Below, piece by piece: positions 1-24,938 of a stretch of DNA of 24,978 nt. The stretch is taken from IMG/VR virus record IMGVR_UViG_3300040806_000987, positions 1 to 24,978 of that record; one strand, written 5' to 3'. This DNA is from a virus. Position 1 is the first letter of the stretch. Each line of letters opens with the position of its first letter. The position numbers and the translations under genes were made by a program. The notes below the pieces were generated by a model, which saw nothing but the letters and a program-made list of their open reading frames with translations, was not told where the DNA came from and ran no database searches.

Positions 1-1640
1 GATAAAACAAATCCGTTATTGAAATCTTTAGTAGCATAAAAATTTAACTTCTTAAGATCATCTAACTTTGTTTGTCCTTCTGGTAGTACATCATATTGAC
101 TAGGTTCTCTATCTAGTTGTACTGCATACTTAATTCTAAGATTTACACCATAAACATCTTTACTGTATTGTACAGCACCTGATATTTTTGGTACTCTAGG
201 TTGTTCAGTATCTGTATACTTTAAACTTAAATACACTGGTCCAAAGTTATTAGCAAATCTAAAACCTTGTGTGATGTAATCACCACCATTTGCGTACGTG
301 GCATTTGTGTACACATCTTCTGTTACAGCAGGTGTTACAGTAACTTCACCTGTGTCAGGATCTGTTACACTTACTTCTGGTTCTACAACTACAGTAGTAG
401 AATATCCTGCTACATACTCAATTGTTTCATCGAACTCATATCTAAATAAACTCATAACGCCAAAGCCTAATTCATATCCAATACCTTCTTCAGGCTTTAG
501 ATCTTCGTCGCCATCGACATAGGCATCACCAAACTTTTCATACAAGTTAGGTTTTCTAAAACTGTCACCAATGTTAAAATACCATGGTCCATTTTCAATA
601 CCAAGTCTAAGAGCATTTTGATCATCGTTACCTAGTCTAAATCCAAAGTTGTAACTCATTACAAAGTCAGCATTAGCAGACATGAATACAGCAAAGTTCT
701 CATCTTCATATATGTTTGAACTATAAGGAGATGATGTTTTATAGTGTTGCTGTTCTGCATCTAGACCGTATGTAACATTTAGTTTGTTACTTAGAATCAT
801 TTGCTTACCAACTCTAAGAAAGTCTCTATAGTTTTCATTCACGTATGTTGAATCACCTTCAGTAAAGTATTCTGATTTTTCGTATGCTCTACCTAATGTT
901 AGTATGTTGTTTCTAATAGCAACATTGTAACGTTCGCCGTCTTGTAAACAGTCATTGCTTTGAGAGAAACTTGAAGTATAACAGTTGTCATAATCATATT
1001 CGTAATCTGTATATTTGCCTACTAGATTAAAGTCTCCAGCATCAACATCAAACCTTGCAGTTTTATTTTTGTAACTGTCTTCTTCATCATTGTCGTTGCG
1101 AACACTATCCATGCCATCGTTTATCATACTAAATTCAATTGAATCAGTAGGTGCAACTCTGGCAAATTTTATATCGTCTTCGAGCCGTACTGTTAAACCG
1201 CTATCAATTGTATCAGTAATAAGTATTGCACCAGCAATACTACCTGAGCCATATAACACTCCGTTTGCACCTGAAATAACCTTTACAGTTTGTCCACTTG
1301 CAAAATCGTGTCCAAAATCATACCAACCACTGCCTGTGCCATTTGCTGGTATACCATTTACATAAACTGATGTATGTATTGTTTGAGCACCTCGCTCATT
1401 GTAGCCTACAAAACCACCATATCCACCTTGTGAGTATGTAAAGTCTTCTTGTATTGCACTAATAAGGCTACTTGATGTAACAGGATTTGCTACCACAGTT
1501 TCCTCTTGTTGAGCAGTTACAATAATTTCTTCTATCTCATCGCCTTTTACTTCACTTGCCCATAACATAAAAATCATGAAAACAAATGTTAAATATAAAG
1601 GAGACATATTGATATGAAAGTTCTTATCTAATTTATTCAT
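1..1640 (-). CDS. TonB-dependent outer-membrane receptor, phage-encoded, 3' end beyond window
   Basis: The reading frame is open from an ATG at 1640 to the window edge (546 codons seen, C-terminus missing). The N-terminus has a signal-peptide look, with a hydrophobic core at residues 15-27 and possible cleavage near residues 28-33. It is followed at once by EIEEIIVTAQ (residues 35-44), a classical TonB box. A compact plug domain follows, with a VYVNGIPANG-like loop and VKVISGANGVLYGSGSIAGA, which fits the family's 'RGP.G.LYG..A.GG.I' block. The rest looks like alternating beta-barrel strands and includes FRKPNLYEKFGD...LKPE, the typical barrel motif. In the family such proteins import siderophores, cobalamin or sugars across the outer membrane using TonB energy; the substrate here is unknown. 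A GGAG ribosome site precedes the ATG and the gene has its own sigma70-type promoter. The plug seems shorter than usual. Family assignment is firm; the role in a phage is inference. Confidence 0.9.
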   Translation of the reverse strand, partial: MNKLDKNFHINMSPLYLTFVFMIFMLWASEVKGDEIEEIIVTAQQEETVVANPVTSSSLISAIQEDFTYSQGGYGGFVGYNERGAQTIHTSVYVNGIPANGTGSGWYDFGHDFASGQTVKVISGANGVLYGSGSIAGAILITDTIDSGLTVRLEDDIKFARVAPTDSIEFSMINDGMDSVRNDNDEEDSYKNKTARFDVDAGDFNLVGKYTDYEYDYDNCYTSSFSQSNDCLQDGERYNVAIRNNILTLGRAYEKSEYFTEGDSTYVNENYRDFLRVGKQMILSNKLNVTYGLDAEQQHYKTSSPYSSNIYEDENFAVFMSANADFVMSYNFGFRLGNDDQNALRLGIENGPWYFNIGDSFRKPNLYEKFGDAYVDGDEDLKPEEGIGYELGFGVMSLFRYEFDETIEYVAGYSTTVVVEPEVSVTDPDTGEVTVTPAVTEDVYTNATYANGGDYITQGFRFANNFGPVYLSLKYTDTEQPRVPKISGAVQYSKDVYGVNLRIKYAVQLDREPSQYDVLPEGQTKLDDLKKLNFYATKDFNNGFVL

Positions 1641-1676
1641 ATTTCTCCAAAAAAAGATATAGTTCATTAAGTACTA

Positions 1677-1704
1677 ATTATACATGACTTTTAAGTATTG
1701 TCAA
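1677..1704 (-). promoter_or_regulatory. sigma70-type promoter of the TonB receptor
   Basis: On the minus strand TTGACA (1699-1704) and TATAAT (1677-1682) are separated by 16 bp, both exact consensus hexamers. Transcription would start near 1670, giving a leader of about 30 nt with a GGAG site just before the ATG at 1640. The sequence around the -35 (ACTCTTGACAAT) is the same as at the promoter at 3097-3124. Confidence 0.75.
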
Positions 1705-1710
1705 GAGTTT

Positions 1711-1746
1711 TATAAAAAGAAACCCCCAAATAAATTTGAGGGTTTC
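1711..1746 (-). terminator. Rho-independent terminator after the AAA+ ATPase gene
   Basis: GAAACCC (1719-1725) pairs with GGGTTTC (1740-1746). The stem continues after one mismatch (1726/1739) with C1727-G1738 and three A-T pairs, closing on a TAAA loop. Read on the minus strand the hairpin is followed by a T-rich run (TCTTTTTATAAA, down to about 1709). It lies 48 nt after the ATPase stop codon and just ahead of the receptor promoter, so it insulates the two transcription units. Confidence 0.8.
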
Positions 1747-1793
1747 AAAGTGCTCAAAGTGGGAGGGTTTTGAACACTAGGGGGAGTATGAAA

Positions 1794-2813
1794 CTATGAA
1801 CGTCTCATACATGTTGACTCAGCAATTGATTTCCAATTATCGAAATCCATCTTAGCCAAGTCAGCAATTTTTAGTACCATTCTTAAACTTATCTCTCTAA
1901 GTCTAGCACTTTTCAAAACCATAAAGTCTATGATTTCTTTTTCGAACTCTTTGCTGAATCCGTATTCTTTAAGCATACCATCTCTAACGATTTGGTTAAT
2001 TCTTAAGAACTTATCACTTGTAGAGTCCATACCTAAATCTAAATAATGGCACCTTGACATAAGTGCGTCTAAGTGATCTTTGATCTTTTTACTTCTAACA
2101 TTTTCAAAGTTGACATTAGTAATAAAAATACAACCACCCTTAAAATCAAATCTTTCAGGTATACCTTCTCTTCTTAAAACGTTAGACTCTGCTTTCCAAG
2201 TAATAGTTCTCTTTTTACCAGAATCTAAAACAGCCTTAAGCATGTTTAAACAAACTTCATCAAATAAAATACTATCGCAGTCATCAAATACAAGAATGTC
2301 TCCTGCATTCGAATTATTAAATAATGTTTGAAATAACCCAATCGGTGTCATTGCACCTTTTACCATTTCAGTTCTAGACTGACCTGATAATTTAGCCATT
2401 GCTTCATACTCATCAAGTATAGTTTCTACACCAAAACTTTTACCAACTCCTGGAGGACCACTAACAATAAGTCCTCTTACATTACCATTAGCAACTGCAT
2501 CGGTCATCTTATCTAATACTTCAAAACGACCTTTGATTCTATCCATAGCCTGTTCTGGAGTTTCTTTTTTCTTAGTAGTTTCCTTAACTGGCATCAAGGA
2601 TTTGTATTCTTCCTGTGAACTAGGTGTTACATCTAATGGTGATGCTACTAACACTCTAATTTTTTTAGCAGTACTGCCCATTAAAGCAGAACCATCAACC
2701 GTTACAAACGGTCCTTTCTTACCAAATGAAAGTGGCTTAACTACTGGAAAAACCGCATCTTTAATAGGTGCATTACGGTAAGTACCTTTTTTAATTTTAA
2801 CAAATGATTTCAT
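1794..2813 (-). CDS. AAA+ family ATPase
   Basis: The protein is 339 residues from the start chosen here. It has a Walker A motif GPPGVGKS (about residues 119-126), Walker B ILVFDDCD (about 173-180) and a sensor-1-like segment IFITNVN. This order is that of an AAA+ ATPase. Related stand-alone ATPases occur in marine T4-like phages, but their role is not known to me and no partner is evident here. An in-frame ATG lies further upstream at 2834. I prefer 2813 because GGGAGGC (2821-2827) sits 7 nt before that ATG and would lie inside the gene if the longer start were used. It has its own sigma70-type promoter and ends before a strong terminator, so it is a single-gene unit, probably expressed early. 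Confidence 0.85.
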   Translation of the reverse strand: MKSFVKIKKGTYRNAPIKDAVFPVVKPLSFGKKGPFVTVDGSALMGSTAKKIRVLVASPLDVTPSSQEEYKSLMPVKETTKKKETPEQAMDRIKGRFEVLDKMTDAVANGNVRGLIVSGPPGVGKSFGVETILDEYEAMAKLSGQSRTEMVKGAMTPIGLFQTLFNNSNAGDILVFDDCDSILFDEVCLNMLKAVLDSGKKRTITWKAESNVLRREGIPERFDFKGGCIFITNVNFENVRSKKIKDHLDALMSRCHYLDLGMDSTSDKFLRINQIVRDGMLKEYGFSKEFEKEIIDFMVLKSARLREISLRMVLKIADLAKMDFDNWKSIAESTCMRRS

Positions 2814-2853
2814 ATTGATTGCCTCCCACAGCATTAATTTAAAATATAGTTAT

Positions 2854-2881
2854 ATTATACTATCGTTTTTGATATTGTCAA
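2854..2881 (-). promoter_or_regulatory. sigma70-type promoter of the AAA+ ATPase
   Basis: TTGACA (2876-2881) and TATAAT (2854-2859) lie 16 bp apart on the minus strand, both exact consensus. The -35 overlaps the last codons of the upstream membrane-protein gene. The predicted start near 2847 leaves a leader of about 34 nt that carries the GGGAGG ribosome site of the ATPase. Confidence 0.75.
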
Positions 2882-3090
2882 CCATAAGTAAAATTATATA
2901 AAAAATTACCAATACCAGAAAAGATTAAATATATAATCCAAAAATACAATCCGACCGCTACAAAGGGCATAATAAGTTGAAACCAAATAGGAGTACCAGA
3001 AAGATCGATATTAAAGTTCTTCCAGGCACCTTCGATAATCACACCTGCTAGAAGTATGAAACCTATTAAAAAGACTGTATTAATTAACAT
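2878..3090 (-). CDS. Small two-helix membrane protein, unknown function
   Basis: This 70-residue protein has two strongly hydrophobic segments (about residues 3-20 and 38-62) joined by a short polar loop (EGAWKNFNIDLSGTP). That predicts a helical-hairpin inner-membrane protein. I do not recognise the family. A consensus sigma70-type promoter lies so close upstream that its predicted start point falls on the A of the ATG, so the mRNA would be leaderless; no ribosome site is seen. The next in-frame ATG is about residue 41 and would destroy the first helix. An early-type promoter on a tiny membrane protein fits a host-takeover or superinfection-exclusion role, but that is only inference. Confidence 0.65.
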   Translation of the reverse strand: MLINTVFLIGFILLAGVIIEGAWKNFNIDLSGTPIWFQLIMPFVAVGLYFWIIYLIFSGIGNFLYNFTYG

Positions 3091-3096
3091 AGTATT

Positions 3097-3124
3097 ATTA
3101 TAGCAAAAATACTGTAATTGTCAA
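3097..3124 (-). promoter_or_regulatory. sigma70-type promoter with extended -10, abutting the start codon
   Basis: On the minus strand TTGACA (3119-3124) and TATAAT (3097-3102) are 16 bp apart, and the -10 is preceded by TGC, an extended -10 feature. Only 6 nt (AATACT) separate the -10 from the ATG at 3090, so the transcript would begin at or within a base or two of the start codon. Confidence 0.75.
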
Positions 3125-3139
3125 GAGTTTTTAATATGC

Positions 3140-3171
3140 TTTATTAAAAGAGAATCTGCTTTCCTGCAGAT
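3140..3171 (-). terminator. Weak intrinsic terminator after the Smr-like gene
   Basis: ATCTGC (3154-3159) pairs with GCAGAT (3166-3171) around a 6-nt loop. On the minus strand the stem is followed by TCTCTTTTAATAA. The stem is only 6 bp, so termination may be partial. It lies in the 142-bp gap between the Smr-like gene and the next promoter; I see nothing else in that gap apart from the promoter. Confidence 0.45.
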
Positions 3172-3232
3172 ACGTTTTGCTCGATATAGATAAAATCGAA
3201 GTGTTAATTGATGATATATGTTTCCTATAATT

Positions 3233-3442
3233 CTAAACATTTCTAATAACTATGATGCCATAACTATCCATTACAACTGTTTCACAACCTATTCTACTTA
3301 TAACATCAAATACTAAATCTATCATACGTTGGCTGTTACCACAAATAATTGTTAAGGGTATTTGAGATTGATTCATTAGTATAAAATTTTCTACCTTTAA
3401 ATCAACTTCGTGGTGCCTTACGCCATGTAAATCTAATTTCAT
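3233..3442 (-). CDS. Stand-alone Smr-like domain protein
   Basis: The protein has 69 residues, about the length of a bare Smr domain. It opens with KLDLHGVRHHEV, matching the LDLHG signature of Smr (small MutS-related) domains. The strand IPLTIICGN fills the place of the usual TGxG loop (here CGNS, degenerate), and a helix-strand end follows (MIDLVFDVISRIGCETV...IIVI). Smr domains are nucleic-acid endonucleases or binding modules in recombination and RNA quality control. The changed glycine loop leaves nuclease activity uncertain. The start overlaps the stop of the 400-residue gene by 4 nt (ATGA), so the two are translationally coupled. It is at the far end of the recombination block. Confidence 0.6.
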   Translation of the reverse strand: MKLDLHGVRHHEVDLKVENFILMNQSQIPLTIICGNSQRMIDLVFDVISRIGCETVVMDSYGIIVIRNV

Positions 3443-4641
3443 TGATACTTTAAATCCATATTAATTAAATGTTTTTGGTTATGTTTTAATATAGGCATCA
3501 TGTCCCAATACATTTCGTGTATCTCATCTATATGTTTGTTGTTTAATTCATTGATGAGATCAATTATCATTTGTAATTTACGTTCACCGTTTTCTTCATT
3601 ATCGTAGTCTTCGTTCCAATAATTACTAAATGTTTTAAACCCTTTTTCTTTATAATATTCTAATGTACCTGCACCAGAATAAATTATTTGAGGATGTAAA
3701 TTTAACATTGGTCGTGTACTTTTTTCAGTTAAAAATGTTTCTCTATGAAAAGGCCTAAAATAGTTATCTAGTTTTTCATCATTACAAACATCAAGATTCC
3801 CATGGCATTCACCACTTTCAGTGGTAATAGTTATATATGACCTATCATATATGTATCTATAATCACCAGTTTTATTAAAATCAGTGCCATTCATATCAGT
3901 TTCTATATGAAAAATTTGATCGAACACTTGTTGCCAATCTCCTTTTAAATCATACTGTATAGGCAACATTTCTAATAACTTTTCTGGTAATGGAAACATA
4001 TTATCTACATCATGCCAATAATGAAAACTTGTAATATTGTTATTTAAAAATGTTTGGGTTAAAATACCACTTTCAAAAAGTTTTAACATAAACACTTGTC
4101 TATGTTTTAACATATTTGCATTTAAGCAATTAAATCTAAAACTTCGTTTGATATCTATTGGGTCAGAACTATAAACAAGTTTATCATGATGAACATGGCC
4201 TTTTGAATATAACCAAATACCAAAATTATAGTATTCACAATTAAACTTTTTGTCATTAGGCACATAAAGTGAATGCCATCTATCATATGATTCTTTGAAT
4301 TTTAAATTACCTGAAGTGAATGTAATATTTTCTAATGGTATGCCTGTGTCGTTTGAAAAATTGTGTATTGCTCTAGGAAACCATTCGCCGTTAATTAGAA
4401 ATTTAGATGCTTCACAAGAATATAAAAATTTTATAAAAAGATATTCAGGAGACTCTAACTCGCTTAATTTTTGATCTATGTCTTTACGAAAAGTTTTTGT
4501 AAAATCTTCAAAATTGTCCCATACTCGCTCTTGACAATTTATAATATCATAATTTACAAAATGACGTTTAGGAGAATCTAGTCGATCACTATGTCTTCCA
4601 TTCCCGCTGTTCTCAATCTCGTTATGTGTCCTATCTGCCAT
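3439..4641 (-). CDS. Conserved hypothetical protein, possibly glycosyltransferase-like
   Basis: This 400-residue soluble protein is rich in aromatic and acidic residues and has no signal peptide or membrane helix. Its C-terminal third holds FLTEKSTRPMLNLHPQII, then GTLEYYKEKGFKTFSNYW. That resembles a block I associate with unnamed phage proteins and, loosely, with the nucleotide-sugar-binding end of some glycosyltransferases ('TEK...P...P...G'). I cannot confirm catalytic residues. The ATG at 4641 makes the gene overlap the end of uvsY by 64 nt in another frame. No later start codon is convincing without losing sequence that reads like protein, but the first 20 or so residues (polar, low hydrophobicity) might be an overlap artefact. 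It is probably in the gp32-uvsX-uvsY operon. Confidence 0.55.
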   Translation of the reverse strand: MADRTHNEIENSGNGRHSDRLDSPKRHFVNYDIINCQERVWDNFEDFTKTFRKDIDQKLSELESPEYLFIKFLYSCEASKFLINGEWFPRAIHNFSNDTGIPLENITFTSGNLKFKESYDRWHSLYVPNDKKFNCEYYNFGIWLYSKGHVHHDKLVYSSDPIDIKRSFRFNCLNANMLKHRQVFMLKLFESGILTQTFLNNNITSFHYWHDVDNMFPLPEKLLEMLPIQYDLKGDWQQVFDQIFHIETDMNGTDFNKTGDYRYIYDRSYITITTESGECHGNLDVCNDEKLDNYFRPFHRETFLTEKSTRPMLNLHPQIIYSGAGTLEYYKEKGFKTFSNYWNEDYDNEENGERKLQMIIDLINELNNKHIDEIHEMYWDMMPILKHNQKHLINMDLKYQ

Positions 4642-5039
4642 TGTTTAGTATCCAATCCTTTCATTATGCCTAGATATTTATTTCGTAAAAGGCTAAATTG
4701 GTTTACAAGGTGAGTTAGATCAATAACACTATCTTCACCGTCTACAAATTTATCTGCATCTCTACTACTAAGTGTTCTATTGTAACTTTCTAAATATTTT
4801 CTAAATACTTTACTACGTTCTCGCCTAAGTTCAATATTTAAATGCTCAAGTATCGCTTCAATCTCTTGTAGTTGATTAAAGCGATACTCGGTCAATCCGG
4901 GTAGTGAAGAAGAGGCCTTTTCTAAACTCCCTTTAATTTTGACTTCCCATCTAGCATCATCAAGTTCTTTTTCGTAATACTCGATCGCCGGAACTATATT
5001 ACCTAAGTCTTGAACAATTTTATTGTAATGGGTAGCCAT
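4578..5039 (-). CDS. uvsY: UvsY-like recombination mediator
   Basis: The protein has 153 residues (T4 UvsY has 137). The middle and end (KVFRKYLESYNRTLSSRDADKF, then LRNKYLGIMKGLDTKQWQI, then GHITRLR) follow the T4 UvsY layout, in which a Lys/Arg-rich helical region leads to a conserved C-terminal helix ending in an 'I..I..MR' motif. UvsY loads the UvsX recombinase on gp32-covered single-stranded DNA. Its place two genes after uvsX and three after gp32 fits this well. Only 4 nt separate the preceding gene's stop from the ATG, so coupled translation is likely; no good ribosome site is visible. The gene's last 64 nt overlap the next one. Confidence 0.8.
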   Translation of the reverse strand: MATHYNKIVQDLGNIVPAIEYYEKELDDARWEVKIKGSLEKASSSLPGLTEYRFNQLQEIEAILEHLNIELRRERSKVFRKYLESYNRTLSSRDADKFVDGEDSVIDLTHLVNQFSLLRNKYLGIMKGLDTKQWQIGHITRLRTAGMEDIVID

Positions 5040-5043
5040 TTAA

Positions 5044-5277
5044 TTAATCCCAATCTTCTTCGTCATCATCATCGTTTAATCCGATGTCAAAGTGACTGAT
5101 TAATGCGGCTTTCATAACAGAATCAAATTCGTTAGCATTATCTTCTGCATCTGAAATATCTACATGATCTTCAAAAGACCTAAGTAATTCTTCTGCTACA
5201 TGTAGTCGTTCTTTTGCAGGGATAAACGATTTAACCGTATCCCATGCGTCTAATAGTAGTGCTACTTCAGGACTCAT
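5044..5277 (-). CDS. Small acidic hypothetical protein between uvsX and uvsY
   Basis: This 77-residue protein has a helical N-terminal two-thirds and a very acidic C-terminus (GLNDDDDEEDWD). Its start overlaps the end of uvsX by 11 nt, and a GGAGG ribosome site inside the last uvsX codons lies 9 nt before the ATG, so it is a real translated gene. I do not recognise a named family. The acidic tail recalls partner-binding tails of DNA-binding-protein accessory factors or DNA mimics, which is only inference. Its position points to a recombination or replication role. Confidence 0.65.
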   Translation of the reverse strand: MSPEVALLLDAWDTVKSFIPAKERLHVAEELLRSFEDHVDISDAEDNANEFDSVMKAALISHFDIGLNDDDDEEDWD

Positions 5278-6373
5278 CTGTATAATCCTCCATTTCTGGT
5301 TCTAATACCTCTGGGTCTAAATCTTCTACTATGTCACCTTGTGCTAGTGGATTTTGACCCCATTCATCTAGAATTACTTGAAGTTTATCATCTGTCCAAC
5401 CTTTTCTGAACTCTTTGATCTCTTCACCTGTAACAGGAGAAACATAAGAAAGTTTGTTACCTACTTTAGTAAGTATTTCTTTTGCTTCTAGCATTTCTAC
5501 CATTCCGCTATAAGGGTCCATTCCTGTTTCATATGGAATCTTAATCTGTACACCTTCAAAAGGTTTACTATATCTAGACTTCATAACTTTACAGGCGGCT
5601 CTGATGCCTTGCACAGAAGATACTTTGTTTCCGTCTGCATCTTCTTTTAGTTTTAGTTTTTTAATTGCAACTACAATACTACTTGCATAGATAAAGCCTT
5701 GACCACCTGAGATCTTGTCATCTGGGTCAAACATATCTTGTGATGCATATGTATGGTTAGTTGCAACAATTCCAATTGGAAAAGGTGCAATTTGGTTAAC
5801 TGTGTTTCTAACTAAAGACGCCAATGCCTTTGGTTTTCTACCCATGTCACCTTTCATGTCACCTTTTTCAAATTGTGTTACATCAGTAGGGGTTAATAAC
5901 ATTCCTAAACTATCTATAACAAATAATAGTTTTGGCATATCTTCATATTCCATATCACCGTAATTATTTTTATAGTCTTTCATAAATTCACTTATTGCTT
6001 TAGCAACATCGTCAATCATTGAAACACTAATTTTTAATAGTTTTTCCGGTGATGTATCAACATCTAATGCCTGCAACCATTGTTCATCTAATGCGTTTTC
6101 AGAGTCAAATAATACTACTTGGCATCCTTGATCTTGTGCATTTTTAACAATGTTTCCAGAACATATAAACGATTTACCAGAACCTGATTCACCTGCAAAC
6201 ACACTAACTTTACCTAGTGGTATACCTCCATTGAAGTCTCCACTTATTAAGTAGTCTAATGTTTTGTTACCAGTACTGATCCAATCCTTTGGGTCATGGA
6301 AACCAGCACTAATACCAGATATGCTTTTAGTCAATCCAGTTCTAAACTTTGTTAAGTCAAATGGTTTTTGCAT
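5267..6373 (-). CDS. uvsX: UvsX RecA-like recombinase
   Basis: The protein has 368 residues (T4 UvsX has 391). The RecA core is clear: Walker A GESGSGKS (61-68), the SENALD segment after the next strand (catalytic Glu), Walker B LLFVIDSLG (Asp154), then the DNA-binding loop region (MLLTPTDVTQFEKGDMKGDMG) and an ATNHTY segment. UvsX forms filaments on single-stranded DNA and drives strand invasion for recombination-dependent replication and repair. The C-terminus is acidic (DIVEDLDPEVLEPEMEDY), as in recombinases whose tails modulate DNA access. A GGAGAAATC ribosome site precedes the ATG. It lies 9 nt after gp32 and is surely co-transcribed with it. Confidence 0.95.
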   Translation of the reverse strand: MQKPFDLTKFRTGLTKSISGISAGFHDPKDWISTGNKTLDYLISGDFNGGIPLGKVSVFAGESGSGKSFICSGNIVKNAQDQGCQVVLFDSENALDEQWLQALDVDTSPEKLLKISVSMIDDVAKAISEFMKDYKNNYGDMEYEDMPKLLFVIDSLGMLLTPTDVTQFEKGDMKGDMGRKPKALASLVRNTVNQIAPFPIGIVATNHTYASQDMFDPDDKISGGQGFIYASSIVVAIKKLKLKEDADGNKVSSVQGIRAACKVMKSRYSKPFEGVQIKIPYETGMDPYSGMVEMLEAKEILTKVGNKLSYVSPVTGEEIKEFRKGWTDDKLQVILDEWGQNPLAQGDIVEDLDPEVLEPEMEDYTDES

Positions 6374-6382
6374 GATTTCTCC

Positions 6383-7411
6383 TTACGACTGTCTGTTTCT
6401 GATCATGTTAAGAATATCATCTGCTGATTTCTTACCAGTATCTTCTGCTGGAGTACTTGCAACTGGCTCAGCCGCTGGTGCTGGAGCAGGAGTTTCTACT
6501 GCTGGTGCAGTTGTTTCTGCTACTGCTGGTGCAGGTGCTGTTACAGGAGCCACACTCTCTGTTGCAGGTTGTGATACTGCTGGAGTAGTTTGTGCTGGTG
6601 CAACTGTTGCCTGTGTTTTTGTACCAACATCGAGTCCATAGGGTTTGAAAAAGTTACCCCATTTTGCAGGGTCATATAACTCCCCATCTACTGATGCTTG
6701 GAACATTTCTGCTATTGCTTGTACGCCTTCTGCTGTTGGTTTAGCAGGAAGGAAGTCATTGAGATCAAATAAACCATGTGTATCAATTGCCGCTAAGTTT
6801 TCTTCAGTAAGAGCACTTTCTTTTCTTGCCCACTTACTTGTAGAATAGTCTGCGTATTGACCTTTGGTTGTTTTTGATAAACGGAAATCTGTACCTGCAA
6901 CATAATCAGTTGGAAGGTTTTCCATTTCTGGGTCCATCAATGCTGATTTAATAATGTTAAAGATTTGAGGTCCAATAACAAATCGTCTAATTGGATTCTC
7001 TGGTGATTCCTCGTTAAGTGGATTTTCATTTACAAAGCCTTGGAAAATATAACTTCTTTTCTTCCAATACTTTCTGCCCATATCTTCTAGTGAAGGATCT
7101 TTAAACCAAGGTCTTACCTCAGTTAATACTGGACATGTTTCACCAAACATTTCCATACAAGGAACTTGTACAGTTGTTGGTTTTTGATCGCCGCCTACTA
7201 CTCCTGGGAATGTAAGTCTGATCATTTGTCGTTCAACCCAAAAGAACGTGTTGTTTGGATCATTGTCAGGTAGGAATCGTAGTACTGTACTACTTCCTTC
7301 GTCTATGTTCCAAAATGGGTATATTGCGTTATCGCTTGAGCCGGTGTTGTTACCTTTGGAATTGTTTTCCATTGATTGTAACTTTGCTCTTATTTCTGCT
7401 AATGAGGCCAT
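6383..7411 (-). CDS. 32: gp32-like single-stranded DNA-binding protein
   Basis: The protein has 342 residues (T4 gp32 has 301). It starts with a basic-hydrophobic segment (ASLAEIRAKLQSM) as in the gp32 cooperativity domain, followed by the OB-fold core. The core has GRKYWKKRSYIFQGFV and IFNIIKSAL, which fit gp32 of marine T4-like phages. The zinc subdomain is changed: Cys85 and Cys93 (CPV) remain, but the position of the last T4 cysteine ligand is Leu96. Residues 265-325 form an Ala/Pro/Thr linker. The end is a small helix-like tip (KKSADDILNMIRNRQS) rather than the long acidic tail of T4. It coats single-stranded DNA during replication and recombination. AGGAGAAAT precedes the start. Two promoters and a leader hairpin lie upstream. 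Confidence 0.93.
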   Translation of the reverse strand: MASLAEIRAKLQSMENNSKGNNTGSSDNAIYPFWNIDEGSSTVLRFLPDNDPNNTFFWVERQMIRLTFPGVVGGDQKPTTVQVPCMEMFGETCPVLTEVRPWFKDPSLEDMGRKYWKKRSYIFQGFVNENPLNEESPENPIRRFVIGPQIFNIIKSALMDPEMENLPTDYVAGTDFRLSKTTKGQYADYSTSKWARKESALTEENLAAIDTHGLFDLNDFLPAKPTAEGVQAIAEMFQASVDGELYDPAKWGNFFKPYGLDVGTKTQATVAPAQTTPAVSQPATESVAPVTAPAPAVAETTAPAVETPAPAPAAEPVASTPAEDTGKKSADDILNMIRNRQS

Positions 7412-7438
7412 GATATTTCTCCTATATTTGCCATGTTC

Positions 7439-7466
7439 GTAATACCTTCTGTGTTTAGGGTATCAC
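7439..7466 (-). promoter_or_regulatory. Hairpin in the gp32 mRNA leader
   Basis: GTGATACC and GGTATTAC can form an 8-bp stem with one G-U pair around a 12-nt loop (stem arms 7459-7466 and 7439-7446, minus strand). It would sit at the very 5' end of the transcript from the 7476-7504 promoter, about 28 nt before the gp32 ATG. T4 gp32 represses its own translation through a structured 5' leader; a similar job here is inference. I found no pseudoknot partner for the loop. Confidence 0.4.
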
Positions 7467-7475
7467 TTGTTTTTT

Positions 7476-7504
7476 ATTATAAAGCCAAGATGTAAAAAAG
7501 TCAA
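7476..7504 (-). promoter_or_regulatory. sigma70-type promoter of the gp32-uvsX-uvsY operon
   Basis: TTGACT (7499-7504) and TATAAT (7476-7481) are 17 bp apart on the minus strand. It is the only such site above the whole recombination block, which has no gaps large enough for another. Confidence 0.65.
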
Positions 7505-7520
7505 CACCTTTTTACAACTA

Positions 7521-7539
7521 TTAATAGATTTTCTATTAA
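7521..7539. other. AT-rich inverted repeat upstream of gp32
   Basis: TTAATAG (7521-7527) and CTATTAA (7533-7539) are perfect arms around 5 nt. It lacks a T-run for the minus-strand transcript and is AT-dominated. It could be an operator, a weak terminator for the gene above, or chance. Confidence 0.3.
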
Positions 7540-7545
7540 CAAATT

Positions 7546-7553
7546 TATTTATC
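7546..7553 (-). promoter_or_regulatory. Late-promoter-like GATAAATA upstream of gp32
   Basis: Exact GATAAATA on the minus strand, the same octamer found before sheath, tube, gp13 and gp16. It is 135 nt from the gp32 start and could give gp32 a second, late transcript. Confidence 0.4.
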
Positions 7554-7567
7554 TGGTTAGTGTGTTT

Positions 7568-8824
7568 TTAGTCTGTAAACTGGTTCAAAAATGCTTCGTA
7601 TGTTTCTGCAACATCTACAGGTGATGCATTTTTACTGTTAGAATTAGCACTTAATAAACAACTTTTAATAGTGCCATATTCAAATTGATTTAAGTTACCG
7701 CCTGATGAAAGTTTACTACTAATGCTTTGTAAATAGTTAGACAATACAGGATCACTTGCAGAATAACCTAATTGACTTACTTGATGTCCAAGCCTTGCAT
7801 GTGGTGAAGCAAAGTCAACTAAATCAGACTCTTGTAATTTATCTTTTAATGTTGCAAATGATTCAGATTCTATTGCTGACACAATTTTACTTTCAAAACT
7901 TTTCTTTTTGTTTACTAATGTTTTTAAATTGTCCATTACATCTGAAACTTTATTATCGAAATGTGTTTCAGTAAATTTACTTTCTAAATCTATATCATCT
8001 TCTAAAATTTCTACATTATTATAATCTGATATACTTTCAATGGTACTTGCATAAGTTTTTACACCACTCAATTTTTTAAATGTAGTTCTAATATCATTTA
8101 TATTTTCAATAGCAAGATCTACATATTCTTGATTGCTTTCGTTAACTAATTTAGAGTTTTTTACATAACGTACAAATTCTCTTAATTGACGATAATCTTC
8201 TGCCATTTTAGAAATTGTTGTGCCTTGTTGATCGTAAACTTCACCGCCATTATATAAATGTCTTGCCATTGCTCTTGCGGCTTGTAAGTTATTTTCTGCC
8301 ATTTTAAACTTTTCTTCACCACGTTGTATTAGTATACTATGTATATTTCTACTTCTAGCACCGCGTACTTCTTCGTTTACTGCTTTTTTATGTCGTACTA
8401 TTAGTTTGATGTTTTCTAATGCTTGGTAACTAGATTTGGTGCTACCTGTCATTTTTCCGTAGTTGGCTTCCATTACTTCTGCCATGTCTCTCTCCGCATT
8501 CCTCTTAATATCGATTTGCTCACCTTTTGGTTTTAATTTTTTATCAAATACCTTATAATCAAAATCTAGTAAGTAATCTTGTGCTAGTTCTTTAAGACGT
8601 ATTCTTATCTCATCTGCATTAATATCTTCACTAGTAGCCATATATACTTCGTCTTTATCTTTATTAACTCTAACTATGATGTTAGGCGAATCAACAGCAA
8701 ATCTAGAACCTTGACTAGGATCTATTACTAATTCACCATCTTCATTAAAAGATTGTACTGAGTACCCAAAACCTTTTAAAGAATTATAAATTTTTTCTGC
8801 TACTGTACTATAACTAATTGGCAT
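7568..8824 (-). CDS. Conserved hypothetical, probable virion-associated protein
   Basis: This 418-residue, mostly helical protein is rich in Lys, Glu, Asn and Ser, with no signal peptide or membrane helix. It contains ENNLQAARAMARHLYNGG and a helical stretch (MAEDYRQLREFVRYVKN) that looks like a coiled-coil rod. I recognise no enzyme motif and cannot name the family. It sits directly after the large terminase gene and has its own GATAAATA late promoter (8844-8851) and a GGAG ribosome site, so expression with structural genes is likely. A virion or head-assembly role is inference from this context. Confidence 0.6.
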   Translation of the reverse strand: MPISYSTVAEKIYNSLKGFGYSVQSFNEDGELVIDPSQGSRFAVDSPNIIVRVNKDKDEVYMATSEDINADEIRIRLKELAQDYLLDFDYKVFDKKLKPKGEQIDIKRNAERDMAEVMEANYGKMTGSTKSSYQALENIKLIVRHKKAVNEEVRGARSRNIHSILIQRGEEKFKMAENNLQAARAMARHLYNGGEVYDQQGTTISKMAEDYRQLREFVRYVKNSKLVNESNQEYVDLAIENINDIRTTFKKLSGVKTYASTIESISDYNNVEILEDDIDLESKFTETHFDNKVSDVMDNLKTLVNKKKSFESKIVSAIESESFATLKDKLQESDLVDFASPHARLGHQVSQLGYSASDPVLSNYLQSISSKLSSGGNLNQFEYGTIKSCLLSANSNSKNASPVDVAETYEAFLNQFTD

Positions 8825-8843: not shown

Positions 8844-8851
8844 TATTTATC
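8844..8851 (-). promoter_or_regulatory. Late promoter GATAAATA before the 418-residue gene
   Basis: Exact octamer on the minus strand, 19 nt before the ATG at 8824, overlapping the stop codon of the large terminase gene. The leader it predicts still carries a GGAG ribosome site. Confidence 0.6.
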
Positions 8852-10436
8852 ATAAGATACCAATTGGTAGCGGACTGTTAGCAGGATCGTCATCATCGTC
8901 TTGTGGATTGTATGTTAAACTACTATTTACAGCATTATAAACATCATCTTCAAAAGTACTTACATATTCTATCATTCTAATTGCAACAACTAATGCCATT
9001 ACTAAATCATCTGTTTGTCCTGGCTTAGATCTAAATGTATTATGTGTTGCAACAAAATTCTTTAGTTCACTTACTAGTGCTTTACTTTTAATAAAAATTT
9101 TATTGCTTTCTACTAATCTTTTTAATTGCAAACAGGCTTCCATTTTATTTTTGTGTGTAGTGTGAAATCCTTTACGTCCTTTCTTACCTTGTATCTTTTT
9201 TGGTTCGTGTAAAAAGTCTCCTGGGAACTGATCTTCTCCAGTATCTCTTATAACTACTAAGGCCGCTTCACCTATGGCATTATTTTCTACAGTCCAGTAT
9301 ATAGAAGATTTACATGTTTCTTTTATGTAATACATAATTTCCATCATAACTTTTACTTGGCCTTCTATAGGCGTTTTGTTATGATTCCATTCTGCAACCT
9401 GTTTCATGCTAGGTAATTCTAATACTTGTATAGCGGCATTATCTCCGCCTGTTCCTGTACTTGGATCTAAAGTTACTATGTAAATGCTATCTTGATTAGG
9501 TTGACTGTACCAACGAACTTGCCCCATTTTAATTTGAGGGTCGACACCTTTTAATTCTATTAATACAAGTGGATCTATAAGTGTTTCGTCATATATAATA
9601 AATTCGCATTCGTGTTCACGTCTAAAACGTTCTTCTCCAATTCTACCACGTTCTTCTGTTGCCCAAATTGAATCTCTGTCTGGGTGTTCTTCCCATTTTG
9701 CAAGTAATGGCTTGAATCCGTTTACACCTACGTCCTGTTCATTTCCAAACTCATCAAACAACTTGTTTGCCTGATTCCAAATCATAGCAAAGGTATCTTC
9801 ATCACTATTTGGTGTGCTTGTAATAATACACTTACCACCTGTTGCTAGTGTGGGTGATAGTGATGTCCAAAACTCGCTGGCTATTCTAGGAGGCACAAAA
9901 GCAAACTCGTCTAAGTATACTAATGTAAGCGACATACCCCTACCAGTGTTTTCGGTTGTTGTACTTGCTACAATTCTACTACCGTTATCAAAACTTATAC
10001 TACCTTTATTATATTCTGTTACACCTGCTCTAATGTAATCTGGTACACTTTCGTAAGCATACCTAATACGTTGCATAATTTCCTGAGCACCTGCTTGTTT
10101 GTGAGCCGCAACTAATATTGTACTGTCGGGTCTAAACATAGCATACCACAGCAAGTATCCTGCCGCTACAGTGGTTTTACCCATCTGTCTGCCCAGCATG
10201 TTGATACTGTATCTGTAATTATTGTAGTTTTCTATTAGATCTAATTGATAACTAAATGGATCAAAATCCATGCCTCCCTTTGTAGGATGTTGAATTTTGA
10301 CATGATTTGTCATAAAGTGCAATGGTCCTGATTCTAGATCAGCACACTTTTTAAAATCTTCTAATGTTTCTGGTGTATAGGCAATTCTACTATAGCCTTG
10401 TTTGACCAGACTGGTATCCGCAGTTCCTCTTGCCAT
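8850..10436 (-). CDS. 17: Large terminase subunit (gp17), packaging ATPase and nuclease
   Basis: The protein has 528 residues (T4 gp17 has 610). The ATPase domain shows Walker A GRQMGKT (82-88), as in the T4 form of this motif, Walker B LVYLDEF (Asp176, catalytic Glu177) and coupling motif ITSTPNS (205-211). The RNase H-like nuclease domain has TLDPSTGTGGD (Asp324), TVENN (Glu384) and QTDDLVMAL (Asp476/477), the expected metal-binding acids. It cuts concatemeric DNA and pumps it through the portal. The N-terminus is shorter than in T4. A TATAAATA element sits just 6 nt before the ATG with no ribosome site, so the mRNA may be leaderless. The small terminase gene is separated from it by two minus-strand genes and one plus-strand gene, unlike the adjacent 16-17 pair of T4. 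Confidence 0.95.
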   Translation of the reverse strand: MARGTADTSLVKQGYSRIAYTPETLEDFKKCADLESGPLHFMTNHVKIQHPTKGGMDFDPFSYQLDLIENYNNYRYSINMLGRQMGKTTVAAGYLLWYAMFRPDSTILVAAHKQAGAQEIMQRIRYAYESVPDYIRAGVTEYNKGSISFDNGSRIVASTTTENTGRGMSLTLVYLDEFAFVPPRIASEFWTSLSPTLATGGKCIITSTPNSDEDTFAMIWNQANKLFDEFGNEQDVGVNGFKPLLAKWEEHPDRDSIWATEERGRIGEERFRREHECEFIIYDETLIDPLVLIELKGVDPQIKMGQVRWYSQPNQDSIYIVTLDPSTGTGGDNAAIQVLELPSMKQVAEWNHNKTPIEGQVKVMMEIMYYIKETCKSSIYWTVENNAIGEAALVVIRDTGEDQFPGDFLHEPKKIQGKKGRKGFHTTHKNKMEACLQLKRLVESNKIFIKSKALVSELKNFVATHNTFRSKPGQTDDLVMALVVAIRMIEYVSTFEDDVYNAVNSSLTYNPQDDDDDPANSPLPIGIL

Positions 10437-22955: not shown

Positions 22956-23912
22956 CTATTTTCCTCTGCTGAAGTTTTTTCTTTGATTGTGAGGTTTATC
23001 GTTTTCTATTATATCTTTCCAAACTGCAATAGTTTTATCTAAACCGTCACTTAATTCTACTTTAGGAAACCAGCCTAACCTAGTTGTGATTTTGTGATTC
23101 GTGCTGTTAAGTAGATAAATTTCTCCTGGTCTAGGAGGTTTAGTATTCCAATTTACATGTCCGTTCCAATCTAATTTATCAGCAATTAATTTTACATAGT
23201 CTTTGATCTTGATTGCATTATCAGGTCCTATGCAAAATATTTCTCCTTGGCATTTATCAGGATTCTCAATCACTGCCTGCCAGGCATCTAATAAATCATC
23301 AATGTAAATAAAGTTTCTGTATGGCTCACCATATCCTAAGTTAATCTCTTTGGGATTTTTTAACATTTGTGTAATAATTTGCTCTGTTACAAAAAAGTCA
23401 TTGTCTTTTCTACCGTATGCATTTGTTTGCCTAATAGCAGTAAAAGGCAATCCATAACTTCTGTGAGCATACTCTAAGTATTTTTCACAGCCATACTTTG
23501 CAACGGCGTAGGGGGCATTAGGATTTGGAGGCGTTGCTTCATTGAATGCAATAATGCCTTCTTCTTTTCCGTCTCTAATCAAATCACTTATAGGTTGCCA
23601 ACCATATACTTCCATTGTACTTGCAAATACAAAATTTTTCAAATTAGGTAGTGTTGCCGCAATTTCAATTAAATTTACAGTACCAACGTAATTTACTTCG
23701 CTAAAAGTTATTTGCTCATAGAAACTTTCTTGTACTTCTGTTCTTGCGGCTAAATGCACAATTACTTCTGGATCAAATTGTTTAATTTGAAATCCTACTT
23801 TAGCATGATCTCTTAGATCTTCTTTTAAAAACTCTAATTCGTGGTTGTCTTTAAGCCGTTGTACCATATGCTGACCGATAAATCCGTCTGCGCCTGTTAT
23901 AAAGATTCTCAT
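22956..23912 (-). CDS. NAD-dependent nucleotide-sugar epimerase/dehydratase
   Basis: The protein has 318 residues, an ordinary length for extended short-chain dehydrogenases. The Rossmann motif is MRIFITGADGFIG (Gly7, Gly10, Gly13). LAARTEV is the usual NAD-contact segment, FASTMEVYG holds the catalytic Ser/Thr (98/99), and YAVAK (Tyr135, Lys139) the catalytic pair. RNFIYIDDLLDA is also typical of the family. Such enzymes remodel UDP- or GDP-sugars. With two dioxygenase-like proteins upstream it may supply or change a sugar for virion or host glycans, an inference. The start overlaps the preceding stop by 4 nt (ATGA). Confidence 0.9.
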   Translation of the reverse strand: MRIFITGADGFIGQHMVQRLKDNHELEFLKEDLRDHAKVGFQIKQFDPEVIVHLAARTEVQESFYEQITFSEVNYVGTVNLIEIAATLPNLKNFVFASTMEVYGWQPISDLIRDGKEEGIIAFNEATPPNPNAPYAVAKYGCEKYLEYAHRSYGLPFTAIRQTNAYGRKDNDFFVTEQIITQMLKNPKEINLGYGEPYRNFIYIDDLLDAWQAVIENPDKCQGEIFCIGPDNAIKIKDYVKLIADKLDWNGHVNWNTKPPRPGEIYLLNSTNHKITTRLGWFPKVELSDGLDKTIAVWKDIIENDKPHNQRKNFSRGK

Positions 23913-24454
23913 TGTATATCCTCAGTTTTTGTATAACCTGTAATTTGCATCGTAAATCTCGGCTCATATCCTAAGTTAGCAACTGAATGAACAGTATTAG
24001 GTGTTATAATAGTATAATCACCTTTCTTATAATCTAACCAAGATTCGTTTTCTATTTCAATGTAGTGTCCCATTAGCCTATCTTGTAAAAATAGATTTAC
24101 TCTAACAGGTTCCATACCTTTTGTATTCATGTTTTCACGTTCTACTTTCTTACGCATTTTGTATAAAGTATCGACATGAGGAGCAATAAATCTTCCTGGC
24201 ATTAATTTATTAATTGTAACTATACCATAGTGTAACCAGTCACTAAAATTATCGTACACACTATGTACCCAACTAGGGCAGTCATCTTCAAATACTTGCC
24301 ATACCCAAGGAGCATCATGTGGATAGTCAGGAACTGCTACTCCTAAACTTTTCCAGTAACCTCCACTGTAAACAGTATTAGTATGTTCTGTGAATTTGAG
24401 CCTATATAACATTTCATCTGTTATATGTTCTATATCTACATGGCCTTTATGCAT
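23909..24454 (-). CDS. 2OG-Fe(II) dioxygenase-like protein, copy 1
   Basis: The protein has 181 residues from the ATG at 24454. Iron ligands are His93 and Asp95 in IAPHVDTLY and His156 in TPNTVHSVANLG; Arg166 (EPRFTMQ) could bind 2-oxoglutarate. Between them lies the beta-jellyroll (VRVNLFLQDRLMGHYIE, YKKGDYTII). The layout resembles aspartyl/asparaginyl hydroxylase-type enzymes common in marine T4-like phages. A longer frame begins at 24493, but there GGGAG touches the ATG with no spacer. Starting at 24454 also aligns the N-terminus with its neighbour (KGHVDIEHITDE...LKF against YGNIKLDIPLAQ...LRF). It overlaps copy 2 by 8 nt. The substrate is unknown. Confidence 0.75.
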   Translation of the reverse strand: MHKGHVDIEHITDEMLYRLKFTEHTNTVYSGGYWKSLGVAVPDYPHDAPWVWQVFEDDCPSWVHSVYDNFSDWLHYGIVTINKLMPGRFIAPHVDTLYKMRKKVERENMNTKGMEPVRVNLFLQDRLMGHYIEIENESWLDYKKGDYTIITPNTVHSVANLGYEPRFTMQITGYTKTEDIQ

Positions 24455-24938
24455 TTTTAAGTACTGTAATCTGTGCAGAATAAAATGGTGCATCTCCCAT
24501 ATTGCCTGCTATGTGCCAATCATCTATGCCAAACTTTACCCAATCACCTTTACGCCATTTTGTAAAAGGTTGATCATGCACTTCATAATAGTGCCCACGT
24601 TTCCAATCTTCTAAAAATATTAAGTAACGATAACTTTCGCCTTCGCCATGTTCCTGTTTAAGTTTAAAATGTTTGTCAACATGATGTGGAATTGTTTGTC
24701 CTGGTTCTATGTTAATCACACTCACAACATGATGATCGTAATTTTGTGGAATCTTTAATGCTAGGTCATGCACCCATTGTGGTGCTGTCTCAAACATTTG
24801 CCATATACTGCTATTATGTTTTGTGTAATATTTTTTTATTGCATCATATTGTTGATAGCACTGAAAATAATCTTCGAATCTCAAGTTCTCTAATTGAGCA
24901 AGTGGAATGTCGAGTTTTATATTTCCGTATTTAATCAC
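24447..24938 (-). CDS. 2OG-Fe(II) dioxygenase-like protein, copy 2
   Basis: The protein has 163 residues and starts with GTG at 24938. The iron site is PHHVDKHF (His86, Asp88) and His142 in IDDWHIAGNMG. FLEDWKRGHYYEV and KWRKGDWVKFG parallel copy 1, so these are tandem paralogues that have diverged widely. The arginine that would bind 2-oxoglutarate is not obvious here: the region after His142 reads PFYSAQITV where copy 1 has PRFTMQITG. That may mean changed co-substrate binding or loss of activity. Its GTGA overlaps the stop of a further upstream gene, so all four frames of this cassette are translationally coupled. Confidence 0.7.
   Translation of the reverse strand: MIKYGNIKLDIPLAQLENLRFEDYFQCYQQYDAIKKYYTKHNSSIWQMFETAPQWVHDLALKIPQNYDHHVVSVINIEPGQTIPHHVDKHFKLKQEHGEGESYRYLIFLEDWKRGHYYEVHDQPFTKWRKGDWVKFGIDDWHIAGNMGDAPFYSAQITVLKNA

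Follow-up and report, generated by a model that had tools for sequence, protein, structure and literature searches.

A predicted BtuB-like TonB-dependent receptor with exchanged alleles at a conserved locus of T4-like phages

Introduction

Phages often attack their hosts via TonB-dependent receptors (TBDRs), and in the case described here a whole phage lineage brings its own. Among the phage genes with a role at the host surface, Lc of phage PA-2 is a porin. Vitamin B12 is often scarce in surface seawater. According to the available text of PMC9586334, phage T5 makes Llp, an outer-membrane superinfection-exclusion lipoprotein that binds FhuA (structure 8a60). The gene studied here resembles Llp and Lc in that it is a phage gene that would act at the host outer membrane with a possible receptor-related effect, but neither the lipoprotein nor the porin is a TonB-dependent importer.

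The closest described system is a putative TonB-dependent receptor, “SusC”, in the marine megaphage Mar_Mega_1 and in LR745206, for which carbohydrate uptake is proposed; the available text of the source names these two genomes and no conserved locus (PMC9723777). The likeness to our case lies in the annotation of a TBDR in a marine phage of huge size. In fold, the viral protein most similar to our receptor is BFVD A0A8D9FQQ5 (TonB-dependent receptor SusC from an uncultured marine phage, E 6.4e-12), which is presumably the same protein as the published SusC, but it has 805 amino acids and shares 11% identity with our receptor in the fold alignment. In the portions of the papers that were available, a phage TBDR is reported in PMC9723777 and none in PMC9004378, PMC11360552, PMC7360065 and PMC12494485. 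A BtuB-like phage family was not found among the literature matches listed for phage-encoded TonB receptors or BtuB, a search that left most subscription papers and bioRxiv outside. A phage TBDR had been reported earlier, and a conserved BtuB-like phage family with cassette swapping is new within the literature searched.

The receptor gene and its promoter

The window, that is, the whole stretch of 24,978 bases that was analysed, is one complete IMG/VR record and a linear fragment. The receptor occupies a single open frame of 555 codons on the minus strand (3..1667), the C-terminus of which is cut off by the left window end (Table 1). Its start is likely to be the second ATG, nine residues into the longest frame, because a GGAG precedes it and several relatives begin there; the ATG at 1667 lies only about 10 bases from the promoter. 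The full-length protein at locus L003, which belongs to the window's own phage (record G001), has 588 amino acids counted from the first ATG and ends in YYLTLGYKW.

Table 1. Positions of the receptor gene, its parts, its neighbours and companion genes. Positions without a prefix refer to the window.
Feature	Position	Strand	Remarks
BtuB-like TonB-dependent receptor gene	3..1640	-	likely start ATG 1640; longest frame from 1667
Hydrophobic N-terminal segment	1542..1640	-	read as Sec signal peptide by eye; AF2 helix 23-39
TonB box EIEEIIVTA	1512..1538	-	pattern EE[IVT][IVL][IVT] in relatives
Plug domain	1212..1508	-	PF07715, E 4.4e-7
Acidic loop RNDNxExDxY	1071..1109	-	BtuB L2-like place by strand order (AF2); putative ligand/Ca2+ role
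Loop YEYDYDNC-x10-C	945..1004	-	two invariant cysteines; BtuB L3-like place by strand order
Perfect sigma-70 promoter of the receptor gene, TTGACA-16-TATAAT	1677..1704	-	
Intrinsic-terminator-like hairpin behind the upstream AAA gene	1719..1746	-	
AAA ATPase (phrog_1250)	1794..2834	-	usually next to the receptor on its upstream side
Perfect sigma-70 promoter before the AAA gene	2854..2881	-	
UvsY-like recombination mediator	4578..5039	-	phage context
UvsX-like recombinase	5267..6373	-	phage context
gp32-like single-strand binding protein	6383..7411	-	phage context
T4-type terminase large subunit (TerL)	8850..10436	-	phage context
MTAN-like gene directly upstream of the receptor, second context	L028:9462-12010; L011:9453-11986		
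Phage MetK, then adenine phosphoribosyltransferase	L003:16445-18071		both kinds also in receptor-less relatives
616-aa B12-binding and radical-SAM protein (CPFACTFC)	L095:11207-13057	-	G013/G014, beside an NAD synthase-like gene
689-aa radical-SAM protein, similar layout	L119:3161-5230	-	250-kb phage G016; B12 domain below cut-off

The first-pass annotation of the window had proposed a TonB-dependent receptor, and this identification is genuine: the Pfam Plug family (PF07715) matches residues 66-147 of the window protein above its curated cut-off, and the TonB box is present. The compact, gated-open plug that the annotation had also suggested found no support: the alignment with the PF07715 model begins at its position 19-25 and reaches the model end (107), with only the first part unmatched. 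As to whether the plug fills the barrel, AF2 predicted the plug with less confidence than the rest of the structure.

Three perfect sigma-70 matches were found in the window, all on the minus strand between 1.6 and 3.2 kb, where 0.14 were expected, and the number three was reached in none of 100 shuffles. A looser promoter scan of positions 1-8000 showed no excess (28 matches versus 36.7 expected). Near the receptor start, 24 of the 75 loci with upstream sequence have a perfect promoter, 20 have one mismatch, six have two and 25 have none, which is a raw count with no shuffled control.

The phage context

The window also contains a tail sheath gene and, between gp32 and TerL in the gene listing, a virion protein gene. 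Its TerL is closest to those of PA5oct-type Pseudomonas phages, Sinorhizobium phage Phosso and Vibrio phage 2.275.O. The first-pass annotation had placed the receptor in a T4-like phage and not in a host fragment, and the adjoining genes for UvsX, UvsY, gp32 and TerL agree with this. The T4-like assignment can be refined to a jumbo lineage, based on the TerL neighbours, in which the receptor seems to be a lasting part. Relatives of the receptor are encoded in records of 339,794 bases (G013) and 250,519 bases (G016), each of which contains Portal_T4. This portal was identified in two of the 19 records searched, most of the others being short fragments, and no portal was found in a record of 216,820 bases. 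Judged by their sequences, the receptor-bearing viruses are jumbo T4-like phages.

The annotation had named a chimeric join at 1640-1800, or host DNA beyond the window edge, as the main danger to its reading, and the receptor gene does run off that edge. However, record G001 (58,615 bases) contains the whole window at 99.996% identity over 24,978 bases, without a break in the feared region, and locus L002 matches the window at 99.991% over 11,667 bases. The extension of the contig that the annotation had called for is provided by G001, in which both the C-terminus of the receptor and a downstream phage gene were recovered; this gene, which encodes a UvsW-like helicase, begins 12 bases past the receptor end. 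The same arrangement recurs in 53 of 60 loci and in two records longer than 250 kb, and two motif scans of genome_contigs gave no bacterial relative. A chimeric contig or a fragment of host DNA is thus hardly credible and was rejected on the basis of the G001 alignment, the recurring locus and the long records.

Similarity to BtuB

The nearest characterised relative of the receptor is BtuB, as judged from its sequence, its family profile and its predicted fold. The family profile, A1, was built from 22 sequences. BtuB was the only match to A1 below E 0.01 among the PDB sequences (E 1.7e-13, aligned end to end), followed by heme receptors at E 0.03 in the plug region. The scores of A1 against five E. 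coli receptors were 52.9 bits for BtuB, 10.5 for CirA, 6.6 for both PqqU and FepA, and -0.8 for FhuA. BtuB was usually also the best match in single-sequence blastp searches, except for L067, where FepA scores above BtuB. The receptor at locus L072 shares 25% identity with BtuB across 605 columns, and as a query it matches 35 of 72,556 plasmid records, 17 of which are covered to at least 80%. Nine of these near-full-length matches are annotated as btuB, five are unannotated and three are plain TonB-dependent receptors, while most of the partial matches bear a generic TBDR annotation or none.

The L003 receptor scores 26.7 bits against the NCBIfam model for BtuB (TIGR01779), which is far below its cut-off of 599.7, and we therefore class the protein as BtuB-like rather than as BtuB. 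At E 0.001, 17 of the 22 members match this B12-receptor model (best E 4.1e-14), again far below the cut-off, and two heme/hemoglobin models weakly match ten and four of the 22 members. PF07715 is found in all 22 members, while the Pfam barrel family PF00593 is reached by only one.

The predicted structure points in the same direction. The AF2 model (pLDDT 77.0, pTM 0.72) aligns with BtuB, which suggests an outer-membrane barrel fold, with the plug as the less confident part. In a Foldseek search with the model, BtuB ranked first (2.6e-18); PirA, a siderophore receptor, took second place (3.1e-17) amid further BtuB entries. The best VIA-align match was again BtuB (Z 34.1, rmsd 2.8, 499 residues). 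Rows 1-11 of that alignment are all E. coli BtuB (Z 31.9-34.1) and rows 12-15 are Bacteroides B12 transporters (29.9-30.7), followed by the heme receptor ChuA and the zinc receptor ZnuD (29.4). The Bacteroides BtuB rows exceed ChuA and ZnuD by only 0.5-1.3 Z and are near ties, and one BtuB model was placed 29th (Z 27.9).

The phage receptor and E. coli BtuB have in common the TonB box, the plug, the barrel, the overall length, the end-to-end alignment, and acidic loops that are conserved where BtuB has L2 and L3. They differ in that their identity is about 21-25% where blastp aligns most of the length, and in that the receptor is phage-encoded, with cobalamin as a putative ligand. Furthermore, the invariant YDYDNC..C loop has no counterpart in the BtuB alignment, and no cobalamin riboswitch was found in ten sources (the window, L003, L008, L011, L028, L060, L067, L072, L081 and L164). 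The PHROG family phrog_5687, of unknown function, matches 19 of the 22 family members and indicates that related plug regions are present in reference phages, but the best stretch covers the plug only (residues 40-154 of L003) in a profile of 760 positions.

Sequence conservation

The receptor gene is under purifying selection, with a median dN/dS of 0.148 and a range of 0.07-0.37 (Nei-Gojobori, 204 non-independent pairs). Of the 77 relatives with an intact N-terminus, 76 have preserved the TonB box. The C-terminal residue is a tryptophan in 51 of 64 complete members, including that of the window's phage, and otherwise P (10), K (2) or H (1). One frame, L056:7635-8825, looks shortened (396 amino acids), and L021 has the odd C-terminus EYYLH, either of which may reflect sequencing error or decay.

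There are 76 invariant positions in A1, with 23 of 99 positions invariant in the plug, six of 13 in the RNDNxExDxY loop and eight of 18 in the YDYDNC...C loop (224-241); the YDYDNC motif itself is present in 77 of 80 loci. Conservation is likewise high at 372-394 and 486-494, in contrast to the two longest loops (310-322 and 415-465), which differ among members and hold long insertions. The limits of the loop segments were chosen by us from the strands of the AF2 model, and these comparisons cover 22 sequences. In BtuB, cobalamin is contacted by the loops L2 and L3, which are close to the calcium sites, and the Ca2+ cage consists of five aspartates, according to the available text of PMC7360065. 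Acidic residues are invariant in both of the phage loops that, by strand order, take the places of L2 and L3, without a one-to-one match to the Ca2+ and B12 residues of BtuB.

A fixed locus with probable losses and a second context

Relatives of the receptor are encoded by 125 viral stretches in our scan, 80 of which were kept as loci. A search for the Plug domain in 26 virus records identified exactly one receptor in 24 of them and none in two records already known to have an empty site. In 39 of the 70 loci with sufficient upstream sequence, the end of an AAA gene from the same cluster lies no more than 400 bases upstream of the receptor. A UvsW-like helicase gene starts at most 200 bases downstream in 49 of 66 loci, with 12 of the misses being loci of the second context described below.

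An independent scan for the helicase gave 247 UvsW-like relatives, 80 of which were kept. The receptor was located upstream in the 53 loci mentioned above, out of 60 with at least 2.5 kb of upstream sequence. Ten of the 80 helicase loci have an empty site, in which the AAA gene abuts the helicase gene, and two further loci are undecided. Presence and absence of the receptor require three changes on the midpoint-rooted helicase tree. The simplest reading, drawn from the tree, would be an old presence with later losses, because one receptor-less clade (nine rows and one undecided) is nested among receptor-bearing helicase rows.

In the second context, which comprises 12 loci, the receptor is placed between T4-type baseplate-like genes (identified by eye) and on the other strand. 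It lies 1-2 bases behind an MTAN-like gene or overlaps with it, and these loci split into two separate clades of the receptor tree.

A tblastn search with three members against 50,697 phage records found no phage receptor; there was either no match or matches only to Salmonella records annotated as a B12 receptor, with 16S rRNA next to it, so that these are probably bacterial DNA filed in the wrong place. As for a bacterial donor, the pattern matches from the two scans of genome_contigs, 70 in one and 12 in the other, included no relative; these scans required short exact motifs and could have missed a distant donor.

Exchange of alleles

The AAA, receptor and helicase genes are all complete in 39 loci, which gives 741 locus pairs. 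There are 38 pairs in which both neighbours differ by less than 10%, and seven of them have receptors that are more than 30% different (33-49%). When the twin loci L002 and L003 are merged, the seven swapped pairs amount to five distinct comparisons. The same kind of control showed no divergent pairs for UvsX (0/50), UvsY (0/52) and gp32 (0/25).

The clearest pair is L003 and L009. The two are 97-100% identical at the DNA level in the 1.2 kb before the receptor and 89% in its first 150 bases, then 62-81% to the receptor end, and 89-97% in the helicase gene. Both proteins begin with 46 identical residues, which run from MNKLDKNF through the TonB box. In this pair the plug and the barrel have thus been exchanged, while the export signal and the TonB box in front of them stayed constant. 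In the comparison of L003 with L052, the divergence already starts within the AAA gene. The distances between receptors correlate with those between UvsW-like helicases (r 0.734, 37 loci; the best of 2000 permutations gave 0.225). Despite this correlation, the clear allele exchanges led us to reject strictly vertical inheritance of the receptor. Such swapping would be expected if the outside of the receptor were under changing selection, either for another form of the ligand or for escape from agents that dock on it.

Companion genes

Downstream of the receptor, and in the same direction, there are genes for MetK (above the NCBI cut-off) and adenine phosphoribosyltransferase (APT, above one cut-off), and in some loci also for an MTAN-like nucleosidase, which falls below the cut-offs. 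For the helicase loci with at least 2.5 kb of downstream sequence, MetK, APT and MTAN were identified in 37, 53 and 19 of 56 receptor-bearing loci, respectively, as compared to six, six and none of seven receptor-less loci. MetK and APT do not depend on the presence of the receptor, because receptor-less loci carry both, and this weakens the idea that the adenine and SAM genes are strict partners of the receptor. The pairing of MTAN with the receptor, with its small difference in presence, is only suggestive. In 12 loci, the MTAN-like gene lies within two bases of the receptor start or overlaps it, which has a parallel in E. coli, where mtn overlaps btuF.

The 340-kb phage (G013) has a MetK gene elsewhere in its genome as well. 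The nearest NCBI model for its 616-aa protein (Table 1) is a KedN5-type methylcobalamin-dependent C-methyltransferase, below cut-off, and no other relative of the 689-aa protein in G016 was found in a motif scan of the viral contigs. None of the eight other records that carry the radical-SAM/B12 protein has a plug domain, these records being fragments, and the protein was dismissed as a general partner of the receptor. Ribonucleotide reductase (RNR) genes were identified in six of 19 records. A link to B12-dependent RNR was rejected for the 340-kb phage, in which the enzyme is of class Ia (NrdA/NrdB) and uses iron, not B12.

Function of the receptor

The best explanation in our view, at roughly even chances, is that the phage makes an energised BtuB-like outer-membrane importer, the probable substrate of which is cobalamin or a related corrinoid. 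The first-pass annotation had suggested iron or vitamin uptake; the likeness to BtuB in sequence and fold leans towards vitamin B12. Host RNA polymerase would transcribe the gene early in infection; after export, the protein would take its place in the host outer membrane and draw its energy from the TonB system of the host, as TonB (PF03544) was found in none of 14 phage records. It would then import cobalamin or a related corrinoid. The cofactor could feed the host methionine synthase and hence the production of SAM, a supply that would join the MetK and adenine phosphoribosyltransferase of many of these phages and the MTAN-like nucleosidase of some, to which one 340-kb phage may add a methylcobalamin-type radical-SAM protein. 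Recombination between phages would exchange the plug-barrel part, with the signal peptide and TonB box kept in the clearest pair, presumably to change ligand variants or to evade phages and bacteriocins that dock on the receptor.

The main rival to import, unlikely but to be taken seriously, is receptor replacement or superinfection exclusion, in which a phage-made receptor keeps up the uptake while evading competing phages or bacteriocins, and import is secondary. It explains the swapping equally well, since surface parts traded at a fixed locus with constant neighbours are what an arms race would produce, and the host-type promoter fits it too; moreover, BtuB itself serves as a phage receptor, according to the available text of PMC8624392. 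However, the L2 and L3 loops and the TonB box have been kept, and a mere decoy needs no TonB box. The two roles may also act together. That the importer takes another ligand, such as an iron-siderophore, heme, a metal or a carbohydrate, for example iron for a phage class Ia RNR, is improbable in our judgement. In its favour, a sequence identity of about 25% is a poor guide to the ligand of a TBDR, ChuA and ZnuD follow the B12 transporters in the structural comparison, PirA is second in Foldseek, the heme/hemoglobin models have their weak matches in ten and four of the 22 members, and the 340-kb phage has the iron-dependent NrdA/NrdB. On the other hand, the family profile gives low scores to CirA, FepA and FhuA, and the near-full-length plasmid matches are largely btuB.

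The annotation had also raised the incorporation of the receptor into the virion for the exploitation of host iron transport (“Ferrojan horse”). This general idea, for which we found no sequence support, could draw on the 12 second-context loci, where the gene lies between baseplate-like genes, albeit on the other strand. It is disfavoured by the export-like N-terminal segment, the preserved TonB box, the host-type promoter and the setting among replication genes in the main lineage, and we consider it very improbable.

Returning to cobalamin import, a broader and more tentative reading, which we hold with more doubt than belief, is that the jumbo T4-like lineage inherits a near-core cobalamin-import gene coupled to a phage SAM cycle (MetK, MTAN-like nucleosidase, APT and, in one genome, a radical-SAM protein). 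Infection would then reprogram the B12 supply, and the ligand-facing part would be a cassette traded behind a constant signal peptide and TonB box. If B12 is imported, these phages would control the uptake of a vitamin and not a step in an intracellular pathway. The empty sites and swapped alleles provide natural pairs of close relatives with different receptors or none, with which nutrient import and receptor replacement can be tested directly against each other.

Other genes in the receptor-bearing records

At the far end of the record, the window encodes an NAD-dependent epimerase/dehydratase that is similar to GDP-mannose 4,6-dehydratase (22956-23912), followed by two adjoining frames (23909-24938) which we take, by eye, to resemble Fe(II)/2-oxoglutarate-type oxygenases. 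The large frame at 3439-4641 in the window has no Pfam match. Its C-terminal part looks similar by eye to those of two other large frames, L119:6107-7456 and L095:14883-16199, and the three possibly represent one phage family.
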